Shown in pieces: positions 31,977-40,824 of a stretch of 60,525 nt of DNA (position 1 is its first letter; every line of letters begins with the position of its first letter). The position numbers were made by a program, and so were the translations under genes. Under the pieces are notes generated by a model, which saw only the letters and a list, made by a program, of their open reading frames with translations, searched no databases and was not told the origin of the DNA. Origin of the DNA: Chthoniobacterales bacterium (GTDB taxonomy: Bacteria > Verrucomicrobiota > Verrucomicrobiia > Chthoniobacterales > JACTMZ01); assembly GCA_014879535.1 (NCBI GenBank), contig JACSRX010000022.1:1-60525 (forward strand). Direction: 5' to 3'.

Positions 31977-33119
31977 ATGCAACGCCGCACGGCATACATC
32001 CTGATACTTTCGATGATGAGCCTGCTCGTCATCGGGATCGTCATGCTGCAAAGCACGGGTGCCTTCGCCCGGGACAGCCACGGCGACATGTATTTCTTCG
32101 TCAAGCGGCAGGGGATGTGGCTGATGATCGGAACCGCGGCACTGGTGGGCGCCGCGTTGGTGGACTACCGCTGGTGGGCGAAGTTGTGGCCCTGGATTTA
32201 CGGGTTGGCGGTGGTCCTGCTCATCCTCTGCTTCGTGCCCCCGGTCGGCATGAAGATCAACGGGGCGTGGCGGTGGATCAATCTCGGCTTCGCGAGCTTC
32301 CAGCCGAGCGAACTCGGGAAGGTGGCGGTGCTGCTTTTCCTCGCATGGTGGTATCACCGCTATGAGGCGGAATCGCGGCAGTTCTGGCTCGGGTTCGCGT
32401 GCCCCCTGGCGGTGGCGGGCTTGATCATGGCCCTCATCGTGGTCGAGGTGGATCTCGGGGCGACATCGCTCATCGGTGTGACGACGCTGGCCGTCATGTT
32501 TGTCGCCGGCGCGGGCTTGCGCTGGCTGATGCTGCCGCTCGGCCTCGGTCTGGCCGGCTTGGTGTTCGCCGTGCTCAACATCGAGGAGCGCACGGGGCGC
32601 CTGATGGCGTTTCTCGACCCCGAAAAATACAAGCTTCACGAGGGGCTGCAGCAATGGCAGGCGCTGCTGGCGTTCGGCGCCGGCGGTGTCGAGGGACTCG
32701 GCCTCGGCGAGGGGCGCCAGAAGATGCTTTATCTGCCCTACGCCCACACGGATTTCATCTTCCCCATGATCGGGGAGGAACTCGGGCTTCGCTTCACGCT
32801 GCTGACCGTGTTCTGTTTCCTCCTCATCCTGATGTCCGGCGTGCTGATCGCGATGAATGCGCGCGACCGCTTCGGGATGCTGCTCGGCTTCGGCATCACC
32901 ATCATCATCACCGTGCAGGCGGCCATCAACATCGGCGTCACCACGTCGCTCCTGCCCAACAAGGGGATGCCGCTGCCATTCATCAGCTACGGCGGGAGCA
33001 ACCTTGCCGTGTCCATGGCGTTCATCGGGATCCTCCTCAACATCCACCGGCTGGGACGCCGCGTGCCTGCGGCACGGACGCGGGCGATTCCCTCCACAAG
33101 CATGGCGGTGCGCCTCTGA
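31977..33119 (+). CDS. ftsW: Lipid II polymerase FtsW (SEDS family)
   Basis: 380 aa, about ten membrane helices. Septal peptidoglycan glycosyltransferase that partners with FtsI. SEDS landmarks: GIVMLQSTGAFA, VKRQGMWLMIG, GAWRWINLGFASFQPSELGK, the large extracytoplasmic loop with YQ-like LQQWQALLAFGAGGVEGLG, HTDFIFPMIGEELG and the C-terminal PFISYGGSNLAVSMAFIGIL. The position between murD and murG fits FtsW rather than RodA. Confidence 0.95.
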   Translation: MQRRTAYILILSMMSLLVIGIVMLQSTGAFARDSHGDMYFFVKRQGMWLMIGTAALVGAALVDYRWWAKLWPWIYGLAVVLLILCFVPPVGMKINGAWRWINLGFASFQPSELGKVAVLLFLAWWYHRYEAESRQFWLGFACPLAVAGLIMALIVVEVDLGATSLIGVTTLAVMFVAGAGLRWLMLPLGLGLAGLVFAVLNIEERTGRLMAFLDPEKYKLHEGLQQWQALLAFGAGGVEGLGLGEGRQKMLYLPYAHTDFIFPMIGEELGLRFTLLTVFCFLLILMSGVLIAMNARDRFGMLLGFGITIIITVQAAINIGVTTSLLPNKGMPLPFISYGGSNLAVSMAFIGILLNIHRLGRRVPAARTRAIPSTSMAVRL

Positions 33120-33123
33120 TCCC

Positions 33124-34212
33124 ATGAAATTCGCGATCGCATGCGGGGGAACGGGCGGGCATTTGTTCCCGGGACTGGCCGTGGCCGAGGTGCTGCGCGC
33201 ACGGGGCCACGAAGTCCTTCTTTTCATTTCCGAGAAGGAGGTGGATTCACGTGCGTTGCAGAATCATCCGGATCTCCCGAGGCAGAAACTACCGTCCATC
33301 GGCCTGCCCGCCGTCTTTTCCCCGGCCCTCATTGCATTCCTGGGGCGGCTGCGCGCAAGTCTGAAGAAATGCGGCCAGATCTACCGGGACGGACGTCCCG
33401 ATGCCGTGCTGGGCATGGGAGGTTTCACCAGCATCGCGCCGCTCATCGCGGCGTGGCGTCGCGGCATTCCGGCGTTCCTGCACGAGTCGAATGCCATTCC
33501 CGGGAAGGCCAACCGCCTTGCCGCACGCTTCTGCCGCACGGTCCTCCTCGGCTTCGGGGAATGCGCCCGTCATTTTCCGAAATGTCCGACGCTTGTCACC
33601 GGAACTCCCATCCGCCGCGAGCTCACGGAAGATGTTCCGGGGGTTCGGGAGGCCCGCCGCAAGCTCGGACTCGACGCGGATCGACCGACATTGCTGGTCA
33701 TGGGCGGAAGCCAGGGGGCGGCGGGGATCAATGTGCTGATGACCCGGGCGGCCCCGCGCCTCGCGGCGCGGGAGTTGCAGGTCATCCACCTTGCCGGCGC
33801 GCGCGATGAGGACGTGGTGCGTTCGGCTTATGAGGCCGCCGGCGTTCCGGCGGCGGTGCTGCCCTTTTGCGACCGGATGCAGGATGTGTATCCTGCCGCG
33901 GATTTCGCGCTCTCGCGTTCCGGCGCCGCCAGCCTCGGCGAGTTGTCGTGGTTCGGGCTCCCCTCGGTGCTCGTGCCGTATCCCCACGCCGCGGAGGATC
34001 ACCAAACGCTGAACGCGCAAATTTTCGTCCGGGCCGGTGCTGCCCGCGTGCTGCCCGAGAAGGGGGCCACCGGCGAGGGTCTTGCCCGGGCGCTTGCCGA
34101 ACTGTTGGATTCCCCGGCCACGCTCGCGGAGATGTCGGCCGCCGCATCCGTGCTGATCCCGCGCGATGCCGCGGCCCGCGTGGCGGATGCGTTGATGGAG
34201 GTGCGGCGATGA
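33124..34212 (+). CDS. murG: UDP-GlcNAc transferase MurG (lipid II synthase)
   Basis: 362 aa from ATG 33124. Adds GlcNAc to lipid I on the inner leaflet. GT-B motifs: ACGGTGGHLFPGLAVAE near residue 7, GMGGFTSIAPLIA, FLHESNAIPGKANR, VMGGSQGAAGINVLM, and the UDP-GlcNAc site SRSGAASLGELSWFGLPSV with PYPHAAEDHQTLNA. The stop overlaps the next gene by 4 bases. Confidence 0.97.
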   Translation: MKFAIACGGTGGHLFPGLAVAEVLRARGHEVLLFISEKEVDSRALQNHPDLPRQKLPSIGLPAVFSPALIAFLGRLRASLKKCGQIYRDGRPDAVLGMGGFTSIAPLIAAWRRGIPAFLHESNAIPGKANRLAARFCRTVLLGFGECARHFPKCPTLVTGTPIRRELTEDVPGVREARRKLGLDADRPTLLVMGGSQGAAGINVLMTRAAPRLAARELQVIHLAGARDEDVVRSAYEAAGVPAAVLPFCDRMQDVYPAADFALSRSGAASLGELSWFGLPSVLVPYPHAAEDHQTLNAQIFVRAGAARVLPEKGATGEGLARALAELLDSPATLAEMSAAASVLIPRDAAARVADALMEVRR

Positions 34213-36497
34213 CGCCCGAGCAACTCGCCGCAGAACTGCATGGTCCACCGCGGAGAATCCATCTCATCGGCGTGGCCGGCTCGGGGATGAGCGGGATCGC
34301 CGCGTTGTTGCTGACCTTGGGGCATCAGGTCAGCGGATCGGACAAGGTGGACACCGTCGAGGTGAAGCGCCTCCAGTCGCTCGGTCTCGATTTCCACACC
34401 CCGCAGCGGGCCGAGGACGTGGTCGCGGCGCAACTGGTGGTCTATTCCTCCGCCATCCGCGAGGGGAATCCCGCTTACGATGCCGCAAAGCGCCTCGGCA
34501 AGCCCATGGTGCGCCGTGCGGAGGCGCTCGCAGCGCTCATGGCCGGCAAGAAGGGGATCCTGGTCTGCGGGATGCACGGCAAGACGACGGTGTCCTCCAT
34601 GGCGGCCCACGTGCTCCGTGCGGCGGGGGTGCATCCCTCGCATTATGTGGGTGCGGAAATTCCGATCCTCGGCACGAATGCCCGATGGGATGCCGGTGGC
34701 GAATATTTCGTGGCCGAGGGGGATGAGAGCGACGGCTCCATCGTGTGCTACCACCCCGAGCACACCATCGTTCTCAATATCGAACCCGAACACCTTGATC
34801 ACTACGCGGACCTGGCCGCCATCGACGCCGCCTTCGCGCGATTGCTTTCACAGACCACGGGGAAGATTTTCTTCTGCGCCGACGACGAGGGTGCGACCCG
34901 GGTCTGTGCCGGACGTCCGGGTGCGGTGTCCTACGGCAAGACCGGCACTTACTCCTGCGCGGACTTCCGGTCGGCCGACTTCACGTCTTCATTCTCCTTC
35001 CGCCGCGACGGAGCCGAGTTGGCGGCGGTCGTGTTGAATGTGCCGGGAGAGCACAATGCGATCAATGCGACCGCCGTGCTGGCCGTTGCCGCGGAGATGG
35101 GGCTGGATCTGCCCAAATGCGCGGCGGCGCTGGAGAGCTTCCGTGGTGCGCGGCGGCGTTTCGAGGTTGTCCATGCTTCCGGGGATTTCCTCCTCGTGGA
35201 CGACTACGGCCATCATCCCACGGAGATCGCCGCGGTCATACGCGCCGCGCGTGATGCGGGACGCGACCGCGTGCTGCTTCTTTTCCAGCCCCACCGATAC
35301 ACGCGCACCGCAGCCCTCAAGGACGATTTCGGGCGAGCCTTGGCGCAGGCCGATGCGGTGGTGGTGACAGATGTCTATCCGGCGAGCGAACCGCCGCTGC
35401 CGGGTGTGACCGGTCAACTGGTCGCGGATGCCGCGGTCGCCGCCGGGTGCCCGCATGCGGTTTACGCGGCTTCGCGCCTGCAGGCCGGCATCGAGGCGGG
35501 GCGCTTGCTGCGTCCGGGCGATCTTCTTGTCACACTCGGGGCCGGAAACATCCACGAGCAGGGAACGGCGTTGGCCCAGGATTTGAAGACGATCGAGATT
35601 TTGAAGTCGGCGATGGGTCCCGGGGTGGCACGGCTTTACGAGCCGATGTCCAAGCACACGACGATGCGCGTGGGAGGACCGGCCCAGTTCTGGCTCGAGC
35701 CGGAAACCGAGGAGGGTTTCTGCGAACTGGTGCGGACCGCGCACGCAGCGGGGCTGCCCTTCATGGTCATCGGGCGCGGCTCGAACCTCATCGTGCGGGA
35801 CGGCGGCCTGCGCGGGGTCGTGGTGCGCCTGCGCCGCGGGGTATTCGGTGAATTCGAGGTCATGGGCGAAAAAATCCGGGCCGGGGTGGGCGTGCGCTTG
35901 AAGGCACTCAGCGGCGCCGCCATCGCCGCCGGGCTTTCCGGCTTCGAATGGATGGAGGGCATTCCCGGGGACGTGGGGGGCTGCCTGCGGATGAATGCCG
36001 GCGCCATGGGAGTGGAGGCGTTCGATCAGGTCGAGTCGCTGCGTTATGCCGACAATGAAGGAAACACGTTGGAAAAATCTCCGCGTGATCTCGAAATCCA
36101 CTACCGCAGCGTGCCGCTCCTGCGGTCGAACTATGCGCTGTCCGCCTTGTTCCGCGGTTCCCCCTCGACACCCGGGGAGGTGGAGCGCCGGACACGGGAT
36201 TACTCCGCCACGCGCAGGGCCTCCCAGCCCGCGGGTGCCAGCGCGGGGTGCATCTTCCGCAACCCGGAGGGAGGAAGGGCCGGGCAGTTGATCGACTCGG
36301 CCGGGCTGAAAAACCTGAGGGTCGGTGCGGCGCGGGTGTCCGACATCCATGCGAATTTCATCCTCAATGAGGGCGGGGCCACCGCCTCCGAGGTGCTCGC
36401 CCTGCTTGAACGTGTGCGGGCGGATGTGCTCAAGCAACACGGGGTGAGGCTGGAGACCGAAGTGCAGATCATCGGCGAGGAGGCGTCCGTGGCATGA
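34209..36497 (+). CDS. murC/murB: Fused UDP-MurNAc-L-alanine ligase / UDP-MurNAc dehydrogenase (MurC-MurB)
   Basis: 762 aa, two enzymes in one frame. Residues 1-~460 are MurC: IHLIGVAGSGMSGIAALLL, ATP loop CGMHGKTTVSSMAA near 120, EGDESDGSIV, DDYGHHPTEIAAV, QPHRYTRT. Residues ~470-762 are MurB: LYEPMSKHTTMRVGGPAQFW, FAD loop GRGSNLIVRDGG near 522, EGIPGDVGGCLRMNAGAMG, SAGCIFRNPEGG near 678, and the final Glu in TEVQIIGEEA. In the SAGCIFRNP motif the proton-donor Ser of many MurBs is Cys, a variant I believe occurs in part of the family. Together they make UDP-MurNAc from the enolpyruvyl precursor and add L-Ala, consecutive reactions. Confidence 0.95.
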   Translation: MTPEQLAAELHGPPRRIHLIGVAGSGMSGIAALLLTLGHQVSGSDKVDTVEVKRLQSLGLDFHTPQRAEDVVAAQLVVYSSAIREGNPAYDAAKRLGKPMVRRAEALAALMAGKKGILVCGMHGKTTVSSMAAHVLRAAGVHPSHYVGAEIPILGTNARWDAGGEYFVAEGDESDGSIVCYHPEHTIVLNIEPEHLDHYADLAAIDAAFARLLSQTTGKIFFCADDEGATRVCAGRPGAVSYGKTGTYSCADFRSADFTSSFSFRRDGAELAAVVLNVPGEHNAINATAVLAVAAEMGLDLPKCAAALESFRGARRRFEVVHASGDFLLVDDYGHHPTEIAAVIRAARDAGRDRVLLLFQPHRYTRTAALKDDFGRALAQADAVVVTDVYPASEPPLPGVTGQLVADAAVAAGCPHAVYAASRLQAGIEAGRLLRPGDLLVTLGAGNIHEQGTALAQDLKTIEILKSAMGPGVARLYEPMSKHTTMRVGGPAQFWLEPETEEGFCELVRTAHAAGLPFMVIGRGSNLIVRDGGLRGVVVRLRRGVFGEFEVMGEKIRAGVGVRLKALSGAAIAAGLSGFEWMEGIPGDVGGCLRMNAGAMGVEAFDQVESLRYADNEGNTLEKSPRDLEIHYRSVPLLRSNYALSALFRGSPSTPGEVERRTRDYSATRRASQPAGASAGCIFRNPEGGRAGQLIDSAGLKNLRVGAARVSDIHANFILNEGGATASEVLALLERVRADVLKQHGVRLETEVQIIGEEASVA

Positions 36498-37408
36498 ATC
36501 TGTCCGGCCTGCACATGGTGGTTCTGATGGGAGGTCCGGGCTCGGAACGCGAAGTGTCGCTGCGCTCCGGCGCAGCCGTGGCCGGGGCGTTGCGGCGGGG
36601 CGGATACCGTGTCACGGAGGTTGAGGTGAAGGACACGGAACTCGATCTCCCGGCTGACACCGGTCTGTGCGTGAACATGATCCACGGAACCTTCGGCGAG
36701 GACGGCCAATTGCAGGGGATCCTTGACGCCCGAAAGATCCCCTACACCGGGGAAGGCGAGGCGGGCAGCCGCCTGGCGTTCGACAAGAAGGAAAGCAAGC
36801 GCCGCTTCGAGAAGGCGGGGGTTCCGACCCCGCGGTGGGAGATGATCGCCGCCGGCGAGCGTCCCTCGTTGCCTCTGCCGCTTGTGGTGAAGGCCCCGAG
36901 GGAGGGATCGAGCGTCGGCGTGCACATCATCCGCCACCAGGAGGAACTCGATGCGGCGCTCCGCGACTGCGCCTCCCTTGACCGTGAAATCCTCATCGAG
37001 GAATTCGTCGAGGGCCGCGAGTTGACCGTCGGTGTCGTTGGTGACCGCGCCATGGCCGTGGTTGAAATCCGCCCGCACGAGGGGTTCTACGACTACGCGC
37101 ACAAATACACCAAGGGCGCGTCGGATTACTTCTGCCCGGCGCCGCTGGACGCGGAAACCACGCGGCATGTCCAGGACACCGCCCTGGCGGCGCACCGTTC
37201 GCTCGGGCTCGAAGTCTATTCGCGCGTGGACATCCTGCTCGCGGCCGGAGGCATCCCGTTTGTGCTCGAGACCAACACGATTCCCGGGATGACCGAAACA
37301 AGCCTGTTGCCGAAGGCGGCGGCCGAGGCGGGCATGACTTTTCTGGAGCTGTGCGAGGAAATCGCGCAACTCTCGCTGCTACGATCCTCTTCGCATCCGT
37401 CACCATGA
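36494..37408 (+). CDS. ddl: D-alanine--D-alanine ligase
   Basis: 304 aa. Makes the D-Ala-D-Ala dipeptide used by MurF. ATP-grasp features: VVLMGGPGSEREVSLRSG, HGTFGEDGQLQGILD, PYTGEGEAGSRLAFDKKESK, VVKAPREGSSVGVHI, EEFVEGRELTVGVVG, YKYTKG-type loop HKYTKGASDYFCP, and VLETNTIPGMTETSLLP. It overlaps murC-murB and ftsQ by 4 bases each, a classic dcw arrangement. Confidence 0.97.
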   Translation: MNLSGLHMVVLMGGPGSEREVSLRSGAAVAGALRRGGYRVTEVEVKDTELDLPADTGLCVNMIHGTFGEDGQLQGILDARKIPYTGEGEAGSRLAFDKKESKRRFEKAGVPTPRWEMIAAGERPSLPLPLVVKAPREGSSVGVHIIRHQEELDAALRDCASLDREILIEEFVEGRELTVGVVGDRAMAVVEIRPHEGFYDYAHKYTKGASDYFCPAPLDAETTRHVQDTALAAHRSLGLEVYSRVDILLAAGGIPFVLETNTIPGMTETSLLPKAAAEAGMTFLELCEEIAQLSLLRSSSHPSP

Positions 37409-38346
37409 GTTTGTTCCGTTCCAAAAAATCGCGCGGGCGGCGTCCGGCACGCCGTCGTCGCAACCAGCACCTTCTCGAAGTGACCGCCACGGCGGAGACT
37501 GAGCGCCGTCGCCGCAACCAGAAGATATTCCTCTTTGCGGGCGAGGCCGTTGTCGTGGCCGGACTGCTTGCGTTCGCATGGCTCGGCATCCGCGCGCTGG
37601 TCAACGCCCAGATTTTCGAGAACAGCCAATACGATGTGCGCGTGGTCGAGGTGAACACTGACGGCGTGATGACGCGCGAGGAGGCCATGGCCAAGTCGGG
37701 CATCCGCGAGGGGATCAACATTTTCTCCCTGAATCTGGAGTCGGCGCAGGCCGCACTGGCCTCGATCGCCGAGGTCAAGTCCGCCAGGGTCGAACGCATC
37801 CTCCCGGATACCGTCAGCATCCATCTGGAGGCCCGCCGTCCCATGGCTTGGGTGGCACCGCGGGACACCGGGGTTGATCCTTCCACGATGGAGGGCGCTT
37901 ACCTTGTCGATGCGGAGGGCATCATCATGAAACCGCAGCGGCTGGAGCCGGCGCACGCGCTGCTTCCCGTTGTCTTCGGCGTGCCGACGGAGCAGTGGCG
38001 CCCCGGTGACCGCATTGATCTTCCCGAGTTGCACGCGGCTCTGGAGCTCTTCTCCCTGGCGGCGGAGCGGACCGAGCCGGAGATCCTGCTGCGCGCGGCG
38101 GACATCACCAAGGGCTGGTGTGTGGTTGCGTGGAACGATCCGCAGGCGAGGTTCACGTTCGGTCTGGACAACCTCCCGGCCCAGTTGGACCGCCTTCAGC
38201 TGATCATGCTCCATGTGGGCCAGACGTCGCGCAAGATCGCCGGTGCCAATCTCATTCCCGAAAGAAACACACCCGTCACCTTCCAGGGCGAACCGGCGCC
38301 GGTTGAGCCGGTTCCCGAGAAGGTGGCGAAAAAACCGAGGTCCTGA
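37405..38346 (+). CDS. ftsQ: Cell division protein FtsQ-like (POTRA domain)
   Basis: 313 aa from ATG 37405. A very basic cytoplasmic head (KKSRGRRPARRRRNQ), one membrane helix at about residues 45-65, then a POTRA-type region (residues ~73-145: VVEVNTDGVMTREEAMAKSG, ASIAEVKSARVERILPDTVS) with the typical I-x2-RxP-like ending IHLEARRPMAWV. Links FtsL/FtsB to the divisome. Position between ddl and ftsA supports the assignment; FtsQ sequences are poorly conserved. Confidence 0.88.
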   Translation: MSLFRSKKSRGRRPARRRRNQHLLEVTATAETERRRRNQKIFLFAGEAVVVAGLLAFAWLGIRALVNAQIFENSQYDVRVVEVNTDGVMTREEAMAKSGIREGINIFSLNLESAQAALASIAEVKSARVERILPDTVSIHLEARRPMAWVAPRDTGVDPSTMEGAYLVDAEGIIMKPQRLEPAHALLPVVFGVPTEQWRPGDRIDLPELHAALELFSLAAERTEPEILLRAADITKGWCVVAWNDPQARFTFGLDNLPAQLDRLQLIMLHVGQTSRKIAGANLIPERNTPVTFQGEPAPVEPVPEKVAKKPRS

Positions 38347-38350
38347 TCCT

Positions 38351-39565
38351 ATGTCCCGTCCCTACATTCATGTCGGTTTGGAAATCGGCACGACGAAAGT
38401 CGCTGCGGTCATCGCGGAGACGCGCAGTGACGGCCTGCTGCGCATCATCGGCATGGGAGAGGCGCCGTCCCGCGGAGTCCGCAAGGGGGAGGTCGTCGAC
38501 ATCGGAAAAATCACGCTCTGCCTCAACGATGCCGTCTCCGAGGCGGAGGAAAAGGCAGACCGGGAAATCACCGAGGTCGTGGCCGCGGTCACCGGGGCGC
38601 ATCTTGAAAGCCTGAACAACCGCGGCGGGATCAACATTCCCGAGGACCGGGAAGAGATCGAGGAGGAGGACGTCATGGAGGTCGAGCAGAGCGCGCGGGA
38701 TGTCAACATCCCGGCGGGCAATGTGTTCCTGCACGCGATCAACCGGCACTACTACGTGGATGGCCAGGAGGGTGTGGCGAGTCCCGTCGGCATGATCGGG
38801 CGGCAGCTCGAGGCGGAATACCACATCGTCCACGGGACGCGGACGCGCATCCAGAACAACCTCCGCTGCATCCGCGAGGCCAACCTGAAGGTGAACAATG
38901 TCGTGATGAGCAGCGTGGCCTCCGCCCACGCGGTGCTCGATCAGGCCGAGAAGGAGCTGGGCGCCTTGGTCATCGACATCGGCGGGGGAACGACAGACTA
39001 CATCCTGTTCCGGGAGGGCACCGTCCGTGACAGCGGGGTGCTCGCAGTCGGAGGTGACCACATCACCAACGACATTTCCATCGGCCTGCGCGTCCCGACG
39101 AAATGGGCGGAGAAAATCAAGATCGAGGAGGCTGATGTCGCCCCGGGTGCCGTCTCGGCACGCGGAAGCCTCGAGGTCGAGGATCCCACATTCGCGGGCG
39201 GCCGCATCGAGCGGCGCATCCTGAACACCGTCACCGAGGCCCGCGTGCGGGAGTTGCTGTCCCTCGTCAAGCGCCGGCTGCAATTCGAGCGGCACAGCCA
39301 GTTTGTCGGCAGCGGCATCTTCCTCACGGGCGGCACTGCGGAACTGCGCGGGATCGCGGCCCTCGCCTCCGATGTCTTCGGGTTGCCCGCCAAGGTGGTG
39401 AATCCCCGTCCCCTGCTCGGACCGAGCGCTCTCTTCGAAAGTCCGCGCTTCAGCACGGCGGTCGGCCTCGTGCTCTATGCGCAGGCCGTGCAGGAGGCTT
39501 TGGATGACATTTCGGTTTTTGACCGCCTGCGTCGCAGGCTCGGCAGATTCATTCCCGGCTTATGA
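38351..39565 (+). CDS. ftsA: Cell division protein FtsA (actin-like)
   Basis: 404 aa from ATG 38351. Anchors FtsZ to the membrane. Actin-fold motifs: phosphate-1 HVGLEIGTTKVAAVIAE, the SHS2/1C insertion region (about 80-165), phosphate-2 VIDIGGGTTDYILF and adenosine motif GIFLTGGTAELRG. The C-terminal VFDRLRRRLGRFIPGL is a basic amphipathic helix, the usual membrane-targeting sequence. The ftsZ start overlaps its stop by 4 bases. Confidence 0.95.
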   Translation: MSRPYIHVGLEIGTTKVAAVIAETRSDGLLRIIGMGEAPSRGVRKGEVVDIGKITLCLNDAVSEAEEKADREITEVVAAVTGAHLESLNNRGGINIPEDREEIEEEDVMEVEQSARDVNIPAGNVFLHAINRHYYVDGQEGVASPVGMIGRQLEAEYHIVHGTRTRIQNNLRCIREANLKVNNVVMSSVASAHAVLDQAEKELGALVIDIGGGTTDYILFREGTVRDSGVLAVGGDHITNDISIGLRVPTKWAEKIKIEEADVAPGAVSARGSLEVEDPTFAGGRIERRILNTVTEARVRELLSLVKRRLQFERHSQFVGSGIFLTGGTAELRGIAALASDVFGLPAKVVNPRPLLGPSALFESPRFSTAVGLVLYAQAVQEALDDISVFDRLRRRLGRFIPGL

Positions 39566-40824
39566 TAACTTTAGGCACCAACAACCAATTGGCCGACCCG
39601 GTCACCACCGCGATCCCCGTGAAGATCGTCGGCGTGGGCGGTGCGGGGCTGGCCCTCCTGGAACCCCTTGCGCGCGGGCAAACCGGACCGTTCGAGTGCG
39701 TCGCCATGCACACGGATGCGCAGGCACTGCTCGCGTCGTCCGCCATCCAAAAAGTGCAGCTCGGCCGGGACGTGGCCAAGGGTCTCGGTGCCGGCGGTGA
39801 TCCGCTGATCGGCCATGCCGCGGCCCGCGAGAGCATGGACGAGATCCGTGCCGCCTGCGGGACGCCGCTGGTCATCGTCTGCGCCGGGTTGGGGGGCGGA
39901 ACGGGATCCGGCGCGGCGCCCGTGGTGGCGCAGGAAGCCTCGCAGGCCGGTGCCTTGGTGGTCGGCATCGTGACGCTTCCCTTCTCCGCCGAGGGCGGCA
40001 AGCGCCGCGAGCAGGCGCGTGTGGCATTGGCCCGCTTGGGGCGCCACTGCGTGGCCGTGTTGTGCTTTGAAAACGACCGGATGGCGGAGGTGGCGCTGCC
40101 GGACGGTCCGGTCAACACATCGTTCGACGCGGTTTCGAGGGTCATCGGCGGAGCGGTCTGGTCCATCGTCCGGATGGTCGGGCTCCCGTCTGTGCTGCGT
40201 GTCGGACTCGACGAATTGGTGCATCTTTTCCGGGGAACCGATGCGAGGTGCCAGTTCGGCTGCGGTTCGGCGTCCGGTCCCGACCGCGCCCGGGAGGCGG
40301 TCGAGAAGGCCCTGCGCTGTCCGTTGCTGGACAGCGGCAAGATTCTCACGACAGCCGGCAACGTGCTGGTCCACGTCACGGGCGACGCCTCCCTCAGCCT
40401 CATGGAGGTCCAGTCGGTCCTGCGGCAATTGTCCCTGCATGTGGAGGATTCCTCCCAGATCATGCTGGGTGTGGCCACCGATGACACATCCGAGGCTCTT
40501 GGTGTGACGATCTTTGTGGGGACGCGGGCGGAAGACATGCCGGAGGTCGGAGAAGAAGATGCGTTGCCCGCGGAAGCGGGGAACAATGCGGGGGATACCG
40601 CCTCGGTGGCCGATCTCCCCGGGCTCAACGGGAATCCGGCGAAGGGTGGGTCGAAGCGCGCGGGGAAAACCACGGAGAAGAAGGCGGCTCTGCAACAGAC
40701 GCAGGACGAGTTGCCGCTCGATCAGGCCATGCGCGGCCGATTCAAGGATCTCTCCCCGACCATGGTGGACGGCCAGGACCTCGACATCCCCGCATTTATT
40801 CGGCTGCGGATCCGGCTCAAGTAG
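39562..40824 (+). CDS. ftsZ: Divergent FtsZ (tubulin-like division GTPase)
   Basis: 420 aa. The tubulin signature LGGGTGSGAAPVVAQEA is intact near residues 110-125, as are TLPFSAEGGKRREQA and the C-terminal FtsA-binding peptide DLDIPAFIRLR (from ~406). Two normally invariant parts are not: the first nucleotide loop reads VGVGGAGLALLEPL (24-36) instead of the usual GGAGGNAVN type, and the T7 loop reads VGLDELVHLF (from ~214) where FtsZ normally has NxDFADV with two catalytic Asp. By eye these become Gly and Glu. Position after ftsA leaves no doubt about orthology. It may have altered GTP turnover or need a partner. Confidence 0.92.
   Translation: MITLGTNNQLADPVTTAIPVKIVGVGGAGLALLEPLARGQTGPFECVAMHTDAQALLASSAIQKVQLGRDVAKGLGAGGDPLIGHAAARESMDEIRAACGTPLVIVCAGLGGGTGSGAAPVVAQEASQAGALVVGIVTLPFSAEGGKRREQARVALARLGRHCVAVLCFENDRMAEVALPDGPVNTSFDAVSRVIGGAVWSIVRMVGLPSVLRVGLDELVHLFRGTDARCQFGCGSASGPDRAREAVEKALRCPLLDSGKILTTAGNVLVHVTGDASLSLMEVQSVLRQLSLHVEDSSQIMLGVATDDTSEALGVTIFVGTRAEDMPEVGEEDALPAEAGNNAGDTASVADLPGLNGNPAKGGSKRAGKTTEKKAALQQTQDELPLDQAMRGRFKDLSPTMVDGQDLDIPAFIRLRIRLK

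Follow-up and report, generated by a model that had tools for sequence, protein, structure and literature searches.

The 60,525-nucleotide stretch of DNA analysed here (the window), which derives from a member of the Chthoniobacterales, contains a forward-strand dcw cluster with the gene order ftsW-murG-murC/B-ddl-(ftsQ)-ftsA-ftsZ, followed by clpB. The ftsW, murG and ddl genes and a murC-murB fusion occupy positions 31977-37408. The gene between ddl and ftsA (37351-38346, forward strand) is probably ftsQ, as inferred from the dcw order; it has no NCBIfam match at E 1e-10, and its product looks like a strongly diverged FtsQ. The adjacent ftsA gene (38351-39565, forward strand) is canonical, scoring 357.6 bits against TIGR01174 (cut-off 175.85), and represents the sole SHS2_FTSA gene. 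Its end overlaps by 4 nt with the start of ftsZ (39562-40824, forward strand), an uninterrupted reading frame of 420 amino acids that contains neither stops nor frameshifts.

FtsZ is the builder of the bacterial division ring. The protein encoded at 39562-40824 is an FtsZ ortholog by its domains, fold and tubulin signature, its place after ftsA in the dcw cluster and its C-terminal peptide. It matches PF00091 with 115.6 bits (cut-off 33), PF12327 with 57.3 bits (cut-off 27) and, over residues 17-325, the ftsZ model TIGR00065 with 233.2 bits, a value below the equivalog cut-off of 295.2 bits, which serves as a naming threshold. The core of its AlphaFold model, mostly predicted with a pLDDT of >85, aligns with FtsZ crystal structures at Z-scores of about 38-40 over about 300 residues, including that of S. 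mutans FtsZ (Z 39.9, 307 residues, rmsd 2.3). Since R213 and G215 take the place of Asn207 and Asp209 of E. coli FtsZ, we classify the protein as a T7-variant FtsZ rather than a canonical one.

The GGGTGSG signature of the T4 loop (residues 111-117; 39892-39912) and a C-terminal conserved peptide of the FtsA-binding type (DLDIPAFIR, residues 406-414; 40777-40803) are both preserved, as pointed out in the first-pass annotation of this DNA, and in our alignment the peptide is also conserved across the clade described below. At 40735-40824 and in relatives from the same order, it lies inside a longer conserved block, RGRF(E/K)..PTxV(D/E)GxDLDxPxFxR, which is followed by a basic tail and exceeds the usual FtsA/ZipA-binding peptide in length. 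The T3 loop (GLGAGGDP; 39781-39804) is canonical, and its G78 corresponds to S. aureus G72 (E. coli G71), which is in contact with the catalytic water (PMC8936486). Also kept is the arginine-finger-like residue R148 (40003-40005; E. coli R142, S. aureus R143). The T2 loop (HTDAQAL; 39709-39729) carries H50 in place of E. coli N43 and retains D45 and Q47 as D52 and Q54. As for the T1 loop (GGAGLALLEP; 39637-39666), its initial description as degenerate is accurate insofar as E. coli N24 is replaced by A31, but the glycine core GGAG is intact, and variation at N24 is common in the phylum. This asparagine is absent from 34 of 135 sequences without D209, compared with 13 of 24 sequences with the fully canonical acid pair. 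Given that it is replaced even where both aspartates are present, the T1 change is not tied to that in T7 and represents ordinary variation within the phylum.

The T7 segment, SVLRVGLDELVHLF, starts at residue 210. Its core, R213-V-G215-L-D217-E218 (40198-40215, forward strand), corresponds to N207-V-D209-F-A211-D212 of E. coli FtsZ, so that R213 (cgt, 40198) aligns with N207, G215 (gga, 40204) with D209, D217 (gac, 40210) with A211 and E218 (gaa, 40213) with D212. This register was obtained concordantly by four routes, namely HMMER pairwise alignment with PDB chains, MAFFT alignment with references, a profile of 22 sequences compared with FtsZ from B. subtilis, S. aureus and M. jannaschii, and the helix boundaries of the AlphaFold model. 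Over residues 138-212, the numbering is offset from that of E. coli by +6 throughout. In E. coli FtsZ, helix H7 spans residues 178-201 and T7 residues 202-209 (PMC8456036); in the model, H7 comprises residues 184-207 and H8 starts at residue 216, which equals the E. coli boundaries (178-201 and 210) plus 6. A use of Asp217/Glu218 shifted in register, as considered in the first-pass annotation, was rejected, because the alignments place E218 exactly on D212 and the H7/H8 boundaries agree with this assignment. The alignments and the model thus show that one catalytic aspartate (D209) is gone, whereas the second acidic position (D212) is retained, unshifted, as the conservative substitute Glu218, which, at the level of both alignment and fold, occupies the catalytic position. 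Asp217 is an added acid at the position of A211. Accordingly, the original statement that the loop lacks the usual aspartates holds for D209 but not for D212.

A glutamate in the position of D212 is also present in alpha-tubulin (E254), which, unlike the source FtsZ, keeps the N and D of the NxD motif. In alpha-tubulin, Glu254 acts as the catalytic residue of T7, and beta-tubulin, with Lys254 at T7, does not support hydrolysis (PMC13394414). In filament structures of S. aureus FtsZ, a swing of D210 (E. coli D209) brings the catalytic water into position, whereas D213 (E. coli D212) does not move, N208 (E. coli N207) contributes to K+ coordination and R143 plays an arginine-finger-like role; each of the exchanges D210N, D213N and N208L abolishes assembly, and both R143K and Q48A lower the GTPase activity (PMC8936486). 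The missing residue is thus the one that positions the catalytic water, in line with the earlier suggestion that the composite GTPase site is altered and, by the yardstick of the S. aureus mutants, a loop combining G215 with R213 should not work.

The distribution of this loop was analysed in FtsZ sequences from 38 Chthoniobacterales genomes (11 of them from the genus of the source), a phylum-wide sample and 80 named public loci; once duplicates and Prosthecobacter tubulins had been removed, the set comprised 214 sequences and two references. IQ-TREE was used to calculate a tree of 114 rows, leaving out the T7 columns and with SH-aLRT values as the only support measure, and residues in the Chthoniobacterales (n=38) were counted without any filter on the acid at 212. 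In this order, position 209 (E. coli numbering, as hereafter) is never acidic (0/38; G 26, T 7, S 4, A 1), and position 212 is acidic in 37 of 38 sequences (D 21, E 16, H 1), a regularity beyond what chance would produce. Around it, the GTP site is conserved, with N165 present in 38/38 and G71, D45 and R/K142 each in 37/38 cases. All 11 members of the genus show the combination G209, D211 and E212. On the tree, the sequences fall into a clade of 51 rows with 100% SH-aLRT support, all of which (51/51) lack an acid at 209 and have D or E at 212. This clade comprises the Chthoniobacterales, named Verrucomicrobiales and Akkermansiaceae records and Prosthecobacter-like ftsZ, and includes the cultured species Haloferula luteola (L144). 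While verrucomicrobial FtsZ proteins had previously been counted among the most divergent ones (PMC9871819), the clade-wide extent of the D209 loss is new here, the first-pass annotation having missed both this clade and its mirror image. The loss of D209 is clade-wide and ancient, and a single-acid T7 loop is the normal state of FtsZ in a large lineage.

A second clade of the same class (23 rows, 96% support), which probably represents the Opitutales and relatives, shows the opposite pattern, with D209 kept and position 212 changed to T, A, S or similar. The corresponding T7 type, LINLDFATL, was seen in L043-L058, L147, L148, L162-L164, L216 and relatives. These proteins are likewise single-copy FtsZ homologs with a single-acid T7 loop but differ from the source FtsZ in that they retain N207 and D209 and have T, A or S instead of D212, which makes them nearer in kind to beta-tubulin. 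Because beta-tubulin lacks an acid at the same place and gives no support to hydrolysis, the loss in this second clade may be even more surprising than that of D209. Among the sampled members of other classes, about half have both acids and most have at least one, and single losses of the acid at 209 or 212 are scattered elsewhere in the phylum. Both acids are lost in only five of 216 sequences (all of them very divergent, three being FtsZ proteins from one genus), and we infer from this comparison that at least one T7 acid is likely required. A group of very divergent FtsZ proteins (L229, L231-L234) comes from genomes of 2.2-2.5 Mb (G077, G089, G106, G185, G297) that belong to one family, perhaps the Methylacidiphilaceae; three of them lack both T7 acids (SINFPSL), the tubulin signature is degraded to LGGAMGSA, and the group could represent an FtsZ that is in decay or has been put to another use. 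In a 98%-complete genome of 1.3 Mb from the same class (G179), searches with PF00091 and the clade alignment gave no FtsZ match, possibly reflecting either a loss of FtsZ or an assembly gap.

Several further positions vary together with, or in the surroundings of, the altered loop. Aspartate at position 211 is found in 104 of 140 sequences without an acid at 209 and in none of the 74 sequences that have one, the pattern expected if Asp211 compensated for the loss. However, only two changes are needed to explain 211D on the clade tree, so that it may reflect one inherited compensation, and in several D209-less subclades the position is occupied by A, P, N or G, including the Verrucomicrobium-like type RMGIADL. 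In the Chthoniobacterales, position 207 is usually occupied by Arg, His or Pro, and N43, part of the Mg2+ shell, is replaced by His in 10 of the 11 members of the genus. In five of these members (L023, L031-L034), the exchanges P207, K47, K142, H43 and E212 are stacked in and around the GTPase site. Within the D209-less group, N207 is accompanied by R/K47 in 14 of 15 cases, a suggestive raw count, but on the tree a charge swap between the two positions is not significant (1-2 independent pairs that are informative; p of at least 0.5). The idea that a basic residue at position 207 in T7 or at position 47 in the facing helix H2 could replace the K+ ion is attractive, although the few events in this pair test lend it no support.

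The possibility that the protein acts with another tubulin-like partner, also raised in the first-pass annotation, receives no support from the gene content. PF00091 identifies ftsZ as the sole gene of its kind in the source genome (3.17 Mb, 96% complete) and a single gene in each of 37 relatives from the order. Tubulin_2 (PF13809) gave no match above the cut-off in the source genome, and two relatives showed sub-threshold matches on their ftsZ alone. Moreover, no BtubA/BtubB-type gene as in Prosthecobacter was detected with PF00091 in the source genome; the presumed Btub genes of other genomes (G220/G223/G232/G267) score 177-199 bits with this profile and are separate from the respective ftsZ. 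A second FtsZ, Btub or Tubulin_2 partner was therefore rejected, as the PF00091 and PF13809 searches found none.

One of the closest known systems is that of Verrucomicrobium spinosum. Its FtsZ is essential, and its cells undergo symmetric binary fission (PMC12283558). The protein, known to be divergent, was called canonical, and eight unusual positions as well as a long extension at the C-terminus were noted; the catalytic T7 change finds no mention in the text consulted of the two papers concerned (PMC1845146, PMC12283558). The published V. spinosum ftsZ sequencing primers (PMC1845146) match one of our sequences, L202, with 1 and 3 mismatches, suggesting that it probably stems from a close relative of V. 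spinosum. The T7 loop of L202 reads RMGIADL, with G at 209, Ala at 211 and Asp at 212. By this proxy, V. spinosum FtsZ, a member of the same clade, probably shares the G209, D212 state, and its essentiality makes a loss of function unlikely. The literature searched contained no biochemical work on an FtsZ from the D209-less clade. Compared with the canonical proteins of S. aureus, E. coli and M. jannaschii (NxDFADV), the source FtsZ is alike in its fold, the T3 and T4 loops, R142, its dcw location and the C-terminal peptide, but it differs by its T7 exchanges (N207 to R213, D209 to G215, A211 to D217 and D212 to E218) and its sub-cut-off TIGR00065 score. Another FtsZ without the conserved NVDFAD motif in T7 is that of Nitrosopumilus, which also lacks the GTP-binding signature and does not polymerize, in an organism that divides with Cdv (PMC3684127). 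In contrast, the source FtsZ has an intact signature, and no other tubulin-like gene was found alongside it.

We consider it probable that the protein is a working division GTPase, the only FtsZ of the cell, whose single-acid T7 loop was remodelled once in the ancestor of the Chthoniobacterales and Verrucomicrobiales. The comparisons show that D209 was replaced by Gly and the acid at 212 retained, either as D or, as in the source FtsZ, as E, the equivalent of alpha-tubulin E254. An extra Asp was gained next to it, at 211, and the K+-binding Asn207 was freed to vary, often to Arg (R213 in the source), with the rest of the nucleotide site (the T3 glycines, the T4 signature, D45, R142 and N165) remaining under strong constraint. 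Polymerization with GTP would persist, and the water could be positioned by Glu218 alone, together with Arg148 from the adjoining lower subunit and possibly Asp217. Since residue 211 lies one residue before 212 on H8 and would face elsewhere, such a compensating role of Asp217 is a guess. Hydrolysis might thus be slowed or tuned differently and yet suffice for treadmilling and binary fission. The essentiality of V. spinosum FtsZ and the constraint on the GTP-site residues favour such a working single-acid GTPase over a dead one.

Alternatively, FtsZ could bind GTP and polymerize with negligible hydrolysis, forming a stable or slowly exchanging scaffold, with constriction being driven by septal wall synthesis. 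This scenario is favoured by the loss of both the swinging Asp and the K+-site Asn, whose S. aureus counterparts are needed for assembly, as judged from D210N and N208L (PMC8936486), and by the R142-to-Lys exchange in five members of the genus, which is equivalent to one that lowers S. aureus GTPase; in addition, a naturally low-GTPase FtsZ exists in Ca. Thiosymbion oneisti (PMC8953583). However, the retention of the 212 acid, R/K142, the T3 glycines and D45 in nearly all of the order is hard to explain if hydrolysis is dispensable, and we therefore regard it as unlikely. Less likely still is that the N-terminus of H8 has rearranged locally such that Asp217, instead of Glu218, positions the water in place of D209. 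The restriction of Asp211 to sequences without the 209 acid would fit this notion, but residues 209 and 212 are in an i/i+3 relationship on the helix, with 211 off that face, and the start of H8 is canonical in the AlphaFold model; moreover, the D209-less subclades with other residues at 211 show that Asp211 is not required, and with two changes on the tree its link with the D209 loss could simply be inherited. An alignment or sequencing artefact, in which a canonical loop was misread, has nothing in its favour and can be regarded as refuted, given that the same loop recurs in 10/10 independent genomes from the genus and, with Haloferula luteola, throughout the 51-row clade, in an unbroken frame whose offset is constant across H7, T7 and H8.

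Returning to the reading as a working single-acid GTPase, it is tempting to go one step further and speculate that two neighbouring branches have independently cut the aspartate pair to opposite residues, one depending on 212 alone, with no swinging D209 and often with Arg207, and the other either depending on D209 alone or being hydrolysis-poor like beta-tubulin. We offer this idea only tentatively, as the odds are rather against it. If true, a single bacterial class would drive the same essential cytomotive filament by two different GTPase mechanisms. Both T7 aspartates have been held to be indispensable, and yet a whole branch, including the Akkermansiaceae and Verrucomicrobium, lives without one of them, and a neighbouring branch without the other. 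A rule thought to be universal is thus broken lineage-wide, with a mirror-image break next door. The question of which residue does the chemistry can now be addressed directly with natural, essential proteins instead of crippled mutants, and the strict need for GTP hydrolysis and treadmilling in cell division becomes testable with natural FtsZ.
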